A stretch of DNA of 64,000 nt, from positions 833,080-897,079 of the forward strand of contig NZ_QMDV01000001.1 of the NCBI RefSeq assembly GCF_003284895.1. The letters are read 5' to 3'. Within the stretch, counting starts at the first letter, position 1; each line of letters opens with the position of its first letter. The translations under genes and the position numbers were made by a program. Source of the stretch: Pontibacter arcticus. GTDB lineage: Bacteria; Bacteroidota; Bacteroidia; Cytophagales; Hymenobacteraceae. The notes below the pieces were generated by a model. The model worked only from the letters and a program-made list of their open reading frames with translations, ran no database searches and was not told the origin of the DNA. This document shows, in pieces, positions 30,526-32,662 of this stretch.

Positions 30526-31275
30526 TTAGGTGTTAAGGAACAGGTGCTCCGGATATTCTACCTTGGCTAAGTATAAACCTTCGGATGGTGCTGCGCCGCT
30601 GGCTTTGCTCCTGTCCTGGCTGGCAATTATACTTTCGAACTGGATTATACTTAGCTTGCCCCGGCCTACATCCAGCAGCGTTCCTACTATCAGGCGCACC
30701 ATCCCGCGCAGAAAGCGGTTTGCCCGGATCGTAAAAATCAATTCTTGGCCGTTTTGCTGCCAGCTGGCTTCGTGAATGGTGCAGCGGTAATGTTTGGTAT
30801 CGCCTTTTACTTTGCTGAAGGTAGTAAAATCTTCGTACTTCAGTAGTATAGCGGCCGCTTCGTTCATCAATTCTACATCCAGCGGTTTGCTTATGTAGGC
30901 AGCGTAATGGCGGTTAAAAGGGTTTTTCCGAAGGCTGATATGGTAATGGTAGGTGCGGGCAAAGGCATCAAAGCGGGCATGCGCCTCCTCCGAAACCAGG
31001 TATAAATTGTTGGCCGCAATATCGGCGGGCAGCAGGCGGTTAAATTTATAAACAGCCTGCGCGGTATCCAGCTGCTGCGCTACATCGAAATGCACAAACT
31101 GCTGGCTGGCATGTACGCCGGTATCGGTGCGTCCGCTACCGGTTGTGGCAATCGGTTGGCGTAGCACTTTGCTCAGGCAATCTTCCAGCACCTCCTGCAC
31201 ACTTAGCGCGTTGGGTTGCACCTGCCACCCATGAAACCGGGTACCGTCGTAGGCTATTTCTAAAAAATACCGCAT
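30526..31275 (-). CDS. truA: tRNA pseudouridine(38-40) synthase
   Basis: Isomerises uridines 38-40 of the tRNA anticodon arm. The 249-aa protein has the family opening YFLEIAYDGTRFHGWQVQP, the catalytic-Asp motif GSGRTDTGVHA (Asp51), the KxxxxxRTYHYHI strand and the late motif RANRFLRGMVRLIVGTLL. It is complete and of normal length. It is followed 24 bases later by the PLP enzyme gene. A nested palindromic element lies between it and the thiolase gene upstream. Confidence 0.95.
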   Translation of the reverse strand: MRYFLEIAYDGTRFHGWQVQPNALSVQEVLEDCLSKVLRQPIATTGSGRTDTGVHASQQFVHFDVAQQLDTAQAVYKFNRLLPADIAANNLYLVSEEAHARFDAFARTYHYHISLRKNPFNRHYAAYISKPLDVELMNEAAAILLKYEDFTTFSKVKGDTKHYRCTIHEASWQQNGQELIFTIRANRFLRGMVRLIVGTLLDVGRGKLSIIQFESIIASQDRSKASGAAPSEGLYLAKVEYPEHLFLNT

Positions 31276-31296
31276 CCGGCAAAGATAAAAAAATTT

Positions 31297-31460
31297 ACCA
31301 CCCCCTGCCCCCTCCTAAAAACAAGAGGGGGTGTTATTCAAAATAATACATAAAGAAATAGCCCCAGCAGGTTTCAAAAAGCTAGGGCTTTACTTCATAC
31401 TTTCAAATAAATCATACATTCTTTACCCCCTCCTGTTTTTAGGAGGGGGCAGGGGGAGGT
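31297..31460. repeat. 164-bp nested palindromic element (MITE/REP-like)
   Basis: The ends are a 26-bp inverted repeat (31297-31322 and 31435-31460) with one mismatch, of which 22 bp are perfect (core CCCCCTGCCCCCTCC). Each end is itself a hairpin; the right one is CCCCCTCCT, GTTTTT loop, AGGAGGGGG. The middle has a further imperfect inverted repeat (AGCCCCAGC ... GCTAGGGCT). The G/C-block composition differs sharply from the surroundings. The element fills most of the truA-thiolase gap, and its right arm reaches almost to the thiolase stop codon. Related sequence elsewhere in the genome could not be checked. Confidence 0.75.
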
Positions 31461-31462
31461 AC

Positions 31463-32662
31463 TTACATTTTCTCGTAGATGATCGCAACGCCCTGCCCTA
31501 CACCCACGCACATGGTGGCCAGGCCATACTTTACATCGTTGCGGCGTTTCATTTCGTGGAGCAGTGTAGCCGTGATACGCGCACCACTGGCACCAAGCGG
31601 ATGACCAATAGCAATGGAACCACCGTTTACGTTTACGATATCCGGGTTAATGCCCAACTGGTGCATACACGGCAATGCCTGCGCAGCAAACGCTTCGTTT
31701 ATTTCAGCCAGGCCGATGTCATTTATACTTAGGCCGGCACGCTTCAAAGCTTTGAGGGTTGCCGGTACAGGGCCCATGCCCATGTGTGCCGGATCTACAC
31801 CAGCCACGCCCACTGCAGCTACTCGTGCCAACGGAGTCAGGTTATAGCGTTTCAGAATTTCTTCGCTTACCATTAAAGATGCTGCAGCGCCATCATTAAT
31901 ACCGGAAGCGTTACCAGCCGTTACACTGCCGCCTTTTTTGAAAGCCGGGGCGAGTTGCGCTAATTTCTCTACTGATGATAAACGCGGATGCTCGTCTGTA
32001 TCAAAAATAATTGGTTCGGCTTTGCGCTGTGGTATACTTACCGGTACGATCTCGTCTTTAAACTTACCGGCTTCGGCGGCTGCTTTATACTTTACCTGCG
32101 ACTGGTGCGCAAACTCGTCCTGGGCTTCACGTGAAACACCTTCGCGCTCGGCTACATTTTCGGCGGTTTCGCCCATTGTAAACGGGTAGTACAGTTTGGA
32201 TAAAGTATCGTTGGTAAAGCGCCAGCCAATGGTTGTGTCGTAAATTTCGGGCGTACGGCTGAAGGCAGTTTCTGCTTTGGCCATTACAAAAGGGGCGCGG
32301 GTCATACTTTCTACGCCACCGGCAATGTATACATCGCCATCGCCGCAGGTAATTGCACGCGATGCATCCATGATAGCCTGAAGGCCTGATGCACAAAGCC
32401 GGTTAACAGTTACGCCACCTATTTCCTCGGGAAGGCCAGCCAGTAACACGGCCATACGCGCTACATTACGGTTGTCTTCGCCGGCCTGGTTGGCCGCACC
32501 CAGCACTACATCTTCTATCAAACCCGGATCTAACATTGGGTTTCGGCCCATTAACTCCTTCAGTACATGAGCCGCCAGGTCATCGGGGCGAACAGAACTA
32601 AGCGCTCCGGCAAACTTGGCAATCGGCGTTCTAACAATATCAACTATATAGGCAGTATTCAT
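31463..32662 (-). CDS. Acetyl-CoA C-acyltransferase (thiolase), 399 aa
   Basis: Condenses or cleaves acyl-CoAs in beta-oxidation or acetoacetyl-CoA formation. Thiolase motifs are intact: acylated Cys in VNRLCASGLQA (Cys90), NVNGGSIAIGHPLGASGAR with the active His, and the second Cys in ATMCVGVGQGVAI near the C-terminus. Length is typical for the degradative FadA/PaaJ type, so fatty-acid or phenylacetate breakdown is likelier than biosynthesis. No fadB is adjacent. It ends two bases from the palindromic element and is divergent from the DUF4293 gene. Confidence 0.92.
   Translation of the reverse strand: MNTAYIVDIVRTPIAKFAGALSSVRPDDLAAHVLKELMGRNPMLDPGLIEDVVLGAANQAGEDNRNVARMAVLLAGLPEEIGGVTVNRLCASGLQAIMDASRAITCGDGDVYIAGGVESMTRAPFVMAKAETAFSRTPEIYDTTIGWRFTNDTLSKLYYPFTMGETAENVAEREGVSREAQDEFAHQSQVKYKAAAEAGKFKDEIVPVSIPQRKAEPIIFDTDEHPRLSSVEKLAQLAPAFKKGGSVTAGNASGINDGAAASLMVSEEILKRYNLTPLARVAAVGVAGVDPAHMGMGPVPATLKALKRAGLSINDIGLAEINEAFAAQALPCMHQLGINPDIVNVNGGSIAIGHPLGASGARITATLLHEMKRRNDVKYGLATMCVGVGQGVAIIYEKM

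Follow-up and report, generated by a model that had tools for sequence, protein, structure and literature searches.

What is the palindromic sequence that separates truA from a thiolase gene in the Pontibacter arcticus genome, and how did it come to lie there? The window, the whole 64,000-nt stretch of DNA that was analysed, contains at 31297-31460 a sequence that a sequence-only reading had described as a nested palindromic element with a 26-bp, one-mismatch terminal inverted repeat, possibly a non-autonomous mobile or REP-type repeat. Our analysis confirms the nested structure, which consists of an inverted pair of hairpin ends around a non-coding interior (Table 1). The terminal inverted repeat is also real but longer than first described: its arms (31296-31332 and 31425-31461) are 37 nt each and complementary at 35 of 37 positions (2 mismatches). 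Each end combines a C-rich tail of 11 nt with a hairpin of 24 nt and so folds on itself, as had been noticed: tail ACCACCCCCTG and hairpin CCCCCTCCTAAAAACAAGAGGGGG on the left, hairpin CCCCCTCCTGTTTTTAGGAGGGGG and tail CAGGGGGAGGT on the right. We refer to such ends as type A. The third, internal inverted repeat was located as well; given the T-rich stretch that follows it on the minus strand, it may be the terminator of the thiolase transcript. The right tail does reach to within two bases of the thiolase stop codon (tail end 31460, stop start 31463), and the base composition is unlike that of the surroundings: the GC content is 0.61 and 0.62 in the arms and 0.29 in the interior, whereas the 500 bp on either side have 0.51 and 0.53. 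Folding of the element as single-stranded DNA gives -46.2 kcal/mol, compared with a mean of -18.6 (sd 3.1) for 200 dinucleotide-preserving shuffles (z = -8.8). The hairpin pattern, allowing up to three mismatches, is matched twice in the window and never in 100 shuffles. Thus the structure is not a product of chance.

Table 1. Parts of the palindromic element and its neighbouring genes (window coordinates)
Feature	Position	Strand	Remark
Whole element: inverted pair of type-A hairpin ends around non-coding interior	31297..31460	.	
Left tail ACCACCCCCTG	31297..31307	+	tail ACCTCCCCC retained in other copies
Left hairpin	31308..31331	.	1 mismatch to family consensus
Interior, AT-rich, 94 nt	31332..31425	.	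no similarity found to those of the eight further short type-A pairs in the genome
Internal inverted repeat	31360..31389	-	arms 31360-31368/31381-31389, 9 nt, one T/C difference
Right hairpin	31426..31449	.	identical to consensus
Right tail CAGGGGGAGGT	31450..31460	+	two bases short of thiolase stop codon
truA (tRNA pseudouridine synthase), neighbour	30526..31275	-	start codon 21 nt left of element
Thiolase, neighbour	31463..32662	-	stop codon abuts element, begins at 31463

The element is dispersed in multiple copies. The P. arcticus genome (3.77 Mb, 7 contigs) exhibits 36 BLAST matches to it, including the window copy, and 21 matches to the 24-nt hairpin with at most three mismatches, against none for the pattern written in reverse. 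The type-A pairs in minus/plus orientation include nine short ones, that of the window among them, with 108-122 nt from one hairpin start to the next, and a tenth, longer one around a DUF559 (PF04480) gene; a few type-A hairpins stand single. With at most two mismatches the hairpin is present in 28 of the 59 genomes searched (P. arcticus included), all of one genus. An exact scan of named genomes, with 80 of 83 stretches listed, gave 75 from Pontibacter, two from Rudanella and three from metagenome-assembled Bacteroidota. No Rfam family matched at gathering scores over 11 loci of P. arcticus. The layout fits a non-autonomous, REP-type element, and the earlier view of a dispersed repeat of this nature is right.

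A query made of truA and the thiolase matches all 50 genomes of the genus (50/50). We classified 32 truA-thiolase spacers by eye and recognized a type-A pair in only two of them (P. arcticus and G013); the other 30 are native-looking (one is just 7 nt long) or contain an extra gene or other repeats. The element is therefore far from being a lone copy that every relative conserves here. The flanks of G013, which has the element, are 90-91% identical to those of G062, which lacks it, and no counterpart of the 139-nt G062 spacer was found in G013: the native spacer is replaced, without a clean insertion. For this reason the interior as native sequence of the locus, despite its terminator-like internal repeat, is unsupported in G013. 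No target-site duplication was seen by eye in the copies read for it, and the genomes compared offered no clean intergenic empty site. Other palindromes, some of them resembling those near RAYT genes, are nested inside the spacers of loci L157 and L158 and inside the type-A element L043, as judged by eye.

The longer type-A pair of P. arcticus (C4:151203-151704) encodes a DUF559 protein (E-value = 8.1e-34) in an open frame of 122 aa; the DUF559 match in a relative's copy (L079) has an E-value of 2.2e-35. Within this genome, short pairs and coding elements have their ends in common, both for type A (L017 and L123) and for another end family, type C (L124 and L192). DUF559 was found in 46 of 50 Pontibacter genomes and in 170 of 296 genomes sampled from the Bacteroidota, the best-scoring match, one per genome, being taken as the locus in both surveys. 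An inverted repeat scoring at least 20 flanks the gene (within 260 bp of the match) at 27 of 31 Pontibacter loci, with a contig-edge locus (L132) counted as a miss; the score was at most 10 in 60 control draws from the same 31 loci. Forty further loci, picked from the Pontibacter survey to cover genomes with and without type-A hairpins, reached at least 20 in 32 cases and at least 12 in 38, the 60 controls belonging to the 31-locus set. Loci below 20 thus number four of 31 and eight of 40.

The ends of these elements form several families: A (tail ACCTCCCCC), A2 (ACCTTCCCC, in which tail and stem are altered together), C (TCCAACCACCCC), and further families whose outermost part is the hairpin. 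A tree of 30 DUF559 proteins was built from the PF04480 match of 30 of the 31 loci (L132 excluded; motif-based finding had missed 13 of 60 loci); on it the seven end-type labels require six changes, the fewest possible. Shuffled labels require 14.8 on average, and none of 200 shuffles was as low as six. Type A is not a single clade, the A protein L134 grouping with A2. At an orthologous DUF559 locus of many species, type-A ends occur with A-clade proteins, and in G064 type-C ends occur with a C-clade protein. One intergenic spot contains a 93-nt type-A pair in P. arcticus (L014) and a type-C DUF559 element in G019 (L143). Exceptions are found too. Four genomes (G011, G013, G016 and G034) possess type-A hairpins with no type-A DUF559 among the typed loci, and two (G005 and G009) possess them with no DUF559 match at all. 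An element with a type-A left end and a type-B right end is retained in four species, a pair of DUF559-like length (L120) encloses a different ORF, and a hydrolase-like ORF lies between the ends at L099. A genome-level match of type-A DUF559 with type-A hairpins was dropped as circular, since the ends of a DUF559 copy themselves count as hairpins. In two type-C DUF559 elements (L145 and L297) the inverted repeats extend well past the hairpin, to a length of about 80 nt or more. We conclude that the repeat is partnered by a DUF559 nuclease whose gene has hairpin ends that match, and not by a RAYT; this is the new part of the picture, and its mechanism is one that we infer.

The DUF559 protein is presumably an active nuclease. 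Sixteen positions are invariant in 22 diverse members (L123 numbering): R20, T24, E27, W31, F44, Q47, D56, F57, E67, D69, G70, H73, D82, R85, R98 and N101. A profile search of the PDB returned 3hrl (E-value = 1.4e-37) and the homing endonuclease I-Bth0305I (3r3p, E-value = 1e-6). The best solved matches to the predicted structure of the L079 protein (pLDDT 84) were again 3hrl and 3r3p, with Vsr further down; the fold match to I-Bth0305I has an E-value of 1.9e-4. DUF559 is thus related to this homing endonuclease by sequence and predicted fold, and exhibits the conserved acidic residues of the EDxHD homing endonuclease family. PADLOC gave weak matches, one of them named homing endonuclease, and the DUF559 model of NCBIfam scores below its cut-off.

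The interiors of 71 pairs from fetched loci, several places being included twice under two locus ids, are mainly 12-26, 83-117 or 422-484 nt long, others being 35-71 and 146-257 nt. Those of 422-484 nt that were translated encode DUF559, with the exception of L120. Among the nine short type-A interiors of P. arcticus, none of the 36 pairwise comparisons rises above the 97th percentile of shuffles, so that recent transposition of whole short type-A copies is unsupported. Window-type interiors exhibit no similarity to DUF559 interiors among the matches listed, and the derivation of the window interior by internal deletion of a DUF559 element was rejected on the same matches. Against one type-C interior the window interior scored 25, with a 100-shuffle maximum of 24, a difference too weak for use; the other eight type-A interiors fell inside the shuffle range. 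Type C is represented in P. arcticus by one DUF559 copy and several short DUF559-less pairs, some of which are of type C at the left end and of type B at the right. Compared with L253, six of eight short type-C interiors score higher than each of 200 shuffles, the exceptions being L255 and L258. Because type-C interiors are alike and type-A interiors are not, type C looks like a younger MITE family, and type A, including the window copy, looks like older remains in which the ends have outlasted the interior. One locus has retained its tails and hairpins across four species, while its interior and the two bases separating tail from hairpin vary. The interiors of L054, L055, L062 and L086 (83-257 nt), from different species, resemble each other, which those of the short type-A pairs of P. 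arcticus do not.

The association of DUF559 with palindromic ends extends beyond the genus. We considered 30 of 34 outside loci (26 from Bacteroidota and four plasmid loci chosen from 41 plasmid records), excluding the contig-edge loci L201, L210, L214 and L221. Hairpins of at least 8 bp are present on both flanks at 19 of them against 1 of 120 controls, and an inverted repeat of 12 or more at 18 against 3 of 120 controls. Strong hairpins on both sides are missing at the remaining 11, which include the two leucyl-tRNA synthetase copies and the HsdM copy described below. Among the four plasmid loci, the two-sided hairpins were found at the Deinococcus locus alone and the inverted repeat at three. 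Three relatives occur on viral contigs. Several Bacteroidota copies lie within an open frame of a host gene, as confirmed by Pfam: methionine synthase (MetH; L205), leucyl-tRNA synthetase (LeuRS; L197 and L200), HsdR (L208) and HsdM (L216). L205 has strong hairpins left and right of DUF559, L208 does too but with a slightly shorter one on one side, L216 has one on a single side, and the LeuRS copies have none. The MetH site is filled in G305, G365 and G367 and empty in G366 of the same genus, the two remaining genomes of the six compared having matched weakly; in the filled alleles, tail-hairpin ends flank DUF559 on both sides. Further loci resemble in-frame copies by eye. At L195 and L196, also by eye, DUF559 and hairpins lie inside frames resembling DNA methyltransferases.

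The ends tend to coincide with gene boundaries. In P. arcticus an end lies no more than 2 nt from the stop end of an ORF in six of nine pairs examined, in addition to the window pair. Of 111 type-A ends in hairpin-fetched loci, 69 face a stop, 29 face a start and 13 face neither within 400 nt, as counted on mechanical ORFs of at least 100 aa with orthologous copies counted separately. On this count 50 of the 69 stop-facing ends lie at -1 to +2 nt from the stop codon; 32 type-A ends overlap its last base (21 TAA, 11 TGA). Eleven of the 29 start-facing ends lie at 3-5 nt, placing GGAGGT before the ATG. GGAGGT is a Shine-Dalgarno-like string, and the ACCTCC of the tail is identical to the anti-Shine-Dalgarno core. 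Stop-facing type-B ends behave similarly (12 of 17 at -2 to +3), and the 17 stop-facing type-C ends in DUF559 loci are all 12-275 nt away. Additional type-A ends, also in DUF559 loci, are found 1, 58, 59 and 65 nt from the stop, mostly at one orthologous locus. Outside the tail no clear sequence motif was found beyond the stop/start codon bias. We read the flush ends as reflecting either a loss of native DNA that stopped at the conserved ends or a target preference; we know of no target mechanism that accounts for a pattern flush with stop codons.

We consider it probable (roughly 0.6) that the window element belongs, as an old member without DUF559, to a palindrome-ended mobile family whose full form, of about 0.5 kb, carries a DUF559 gene. 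In the full form the DUF559 (Vsr/EDxHD-type) nuclease gene lies between a pair of inverted ends that each combine a hairpin with a short C-rich tail. The nuclease would recognise its own hairpin and tail and nick or cut DNA there or at a target, and repair or replication would copy the element. Short copies with the ends alone could then spread in trans, like MITEs or REPINs. Old copies would lose the gene, and their interior and the surrounding native DNA would erode; the ends would finish flush with gene boundaries, where they may by now act as mRNA-end structures. The observed basis of this reading is the dispersal, the presence of DUF559 between the ends, the end type following the nuclease tree, and the presence/absence at the window locus and in methionine synthase. 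Counting against it are the dissimilar short type-A interiors of P. arcticus, the genomes with type-A hairpins but no type-A DUF559 among their typed loci, the replaced spacer of G013, the element with mixed type-A and type-B ends, the DUF559 loci with weak flanking repeats or hairpins, the other ORF of L120, and the flush position at stop codons.

The layout of the pairs would also suit a REPIN mobilised in trans by one of the RAYT (IS200-like) proteins of the genome, which has four RAYT-like genes (four Y1_Tnp matches over the cut-off; loci L024-L027 at C3:114297, C1:280008, C3:126697 and C3:193602). REPINs are inverted REP pairs with preferred spacings and a less conserved spacer (Bertels and Rainey 2011, PMC3116915). 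The nine type-A pairs are likewise inverted doublets of short palindromes at a near-constant distance (108-122 nt) with a less conserved spacer, and the intergenic location and a nuclease gene with cognate palindromes elsewhere in the genome are further points in common. Cognate palindromes flanking a RAYT gene are nevertheless missing: at all four RAYT loci the window hairpin is absent within 6 mismatches, and different palindromes occur there, clearest at L025, L026 and L027. A RAYT partner for the window hairpin is therefore rejected in P. arcticus, and the gene found between these ends is DUF559, in place of the RAYT-type transposase that the earlier reading had suggested looking for. The nuclease, of Vsr/EDxHD-like type, differs from the tyrosine HUH transposase of the REPIN/RAYT systems; the C-rich tail ACCTCCCCC and the ability of long forms to sit in frame inside genes are further differences. 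The GTAG tag of REPINs is absent from the window element as we read it, the right tail GGGGGAGG containing GGAG. Mobilisation by RAYT proteins appears very improbable.

Two other explanations deserve somewhat more weight, each still unlikely. The hairpins may be primary and spread by another route, with DUF559 as a passenger that inserts between them or hitch-hikes. Short pairs do outnumber DUF559 copies in P. arcticus, the interior varies from 12 to 484 nt and may hold other sequence (the ORFs of L099 and L120), and G005 and G009 have hairpins without a DUF559 match; against this, the end type follows the DUF559 tree over 30 proteins without a single change more than the minimum, and in MetH the nuclease and the hairpins are present jointly. 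Of the alternatives we find this one the least implausible. More doubtful is the proposal that the host maintains the pairs as structures at gene boundaries (mRNA 3' ends, terminators or ribosome-binding sites) and that they are no longer mobile. The 50 stop-facing ends next to stop codons, the 11 start-facing ends with GGAGGT 3-5 nt before ATG, and the tails and hairpins kept in four species over a differing interior all speak for it, although the counts include orthologous copies. Against it stand the rarity of the pair at the window locus (2 of 32 genomes read), the dispersal of near-identical ends and their association with DUF559. Old copies may serve at gene boundaries today without having arisen in that way.

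Among known elements, MITEs are short and non-coding and have terminal inverted repeats in common with a coding element. The short pairs resemble them in being non-coding and in sharing their ends with a coding element of the same genome; an interior shared among copies is seen for type C (six of eight resemble L253) and not for type A (0 of 36). Unlike in MITEs, the ends are themselves hairpins and the partner is not a DDE transposase; no target-site duplication was visible by eye. Rickettsia palindromic elements are palindromic and inserted in frame in genes, a likeness to the in-frame copies described here; to our knowledge they have no DUF559 partner. With the EDxHD homing endonuclease I-Bth0305I (PDB 3r3p) DUF559 shares, besides the related fold and sequence, a gene that can lie inside conserved host genes. 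In contrast to EDxHD homing elements, no intron or intein was recognised, and the hairpin ends, in-frame peptides and dispersed loci are distinctive. The gene-between-repeats plan of the DUF559 element recalls that of TIRYT elements, in which a nuclease gene lies between terminal inverted repeats, some also dispersed, with a tyrosine transposase as the enzyme (PMC3733652). Judged by titles and the beginnings of abstracts, the literature on DUF559 contained nothing on repeats and that on palindromes and mobile elements no description of a DUF559-hairpin pairing, in a search that covered neither preprints nor most subscription papers. The dispersed ends, DUF559 carriers and in-frame copies suggest a kind of mobile DNA in bacteria that has yet to be described.

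More tentatively, and at slightly less than even odds, the widespread DUF559 family could be the enzyme of palindrome-ended mobile elements spanning the phylum, with a homing-like spread at hairpins. This would explain many anonymous C/T-rich palindromes and, in proteins of bacteria, in-frame peptides such as SPLPLGEDLGEG, and short relics would have been taken over as boundary signals placed exactly at stop codons. An anonymous repeat is now tied to a nuclease family without assigned function, which suggests that the task of REP/RAYT systems has been solved a second time by an unrelated enzyme. Where common C/T-rich palindromes come from becomes testable, natural in-frame insertion sites in essential enzymes are provided, and a very small (about 120 aa) hairpin-linked nuclease is offered for biochemistry.
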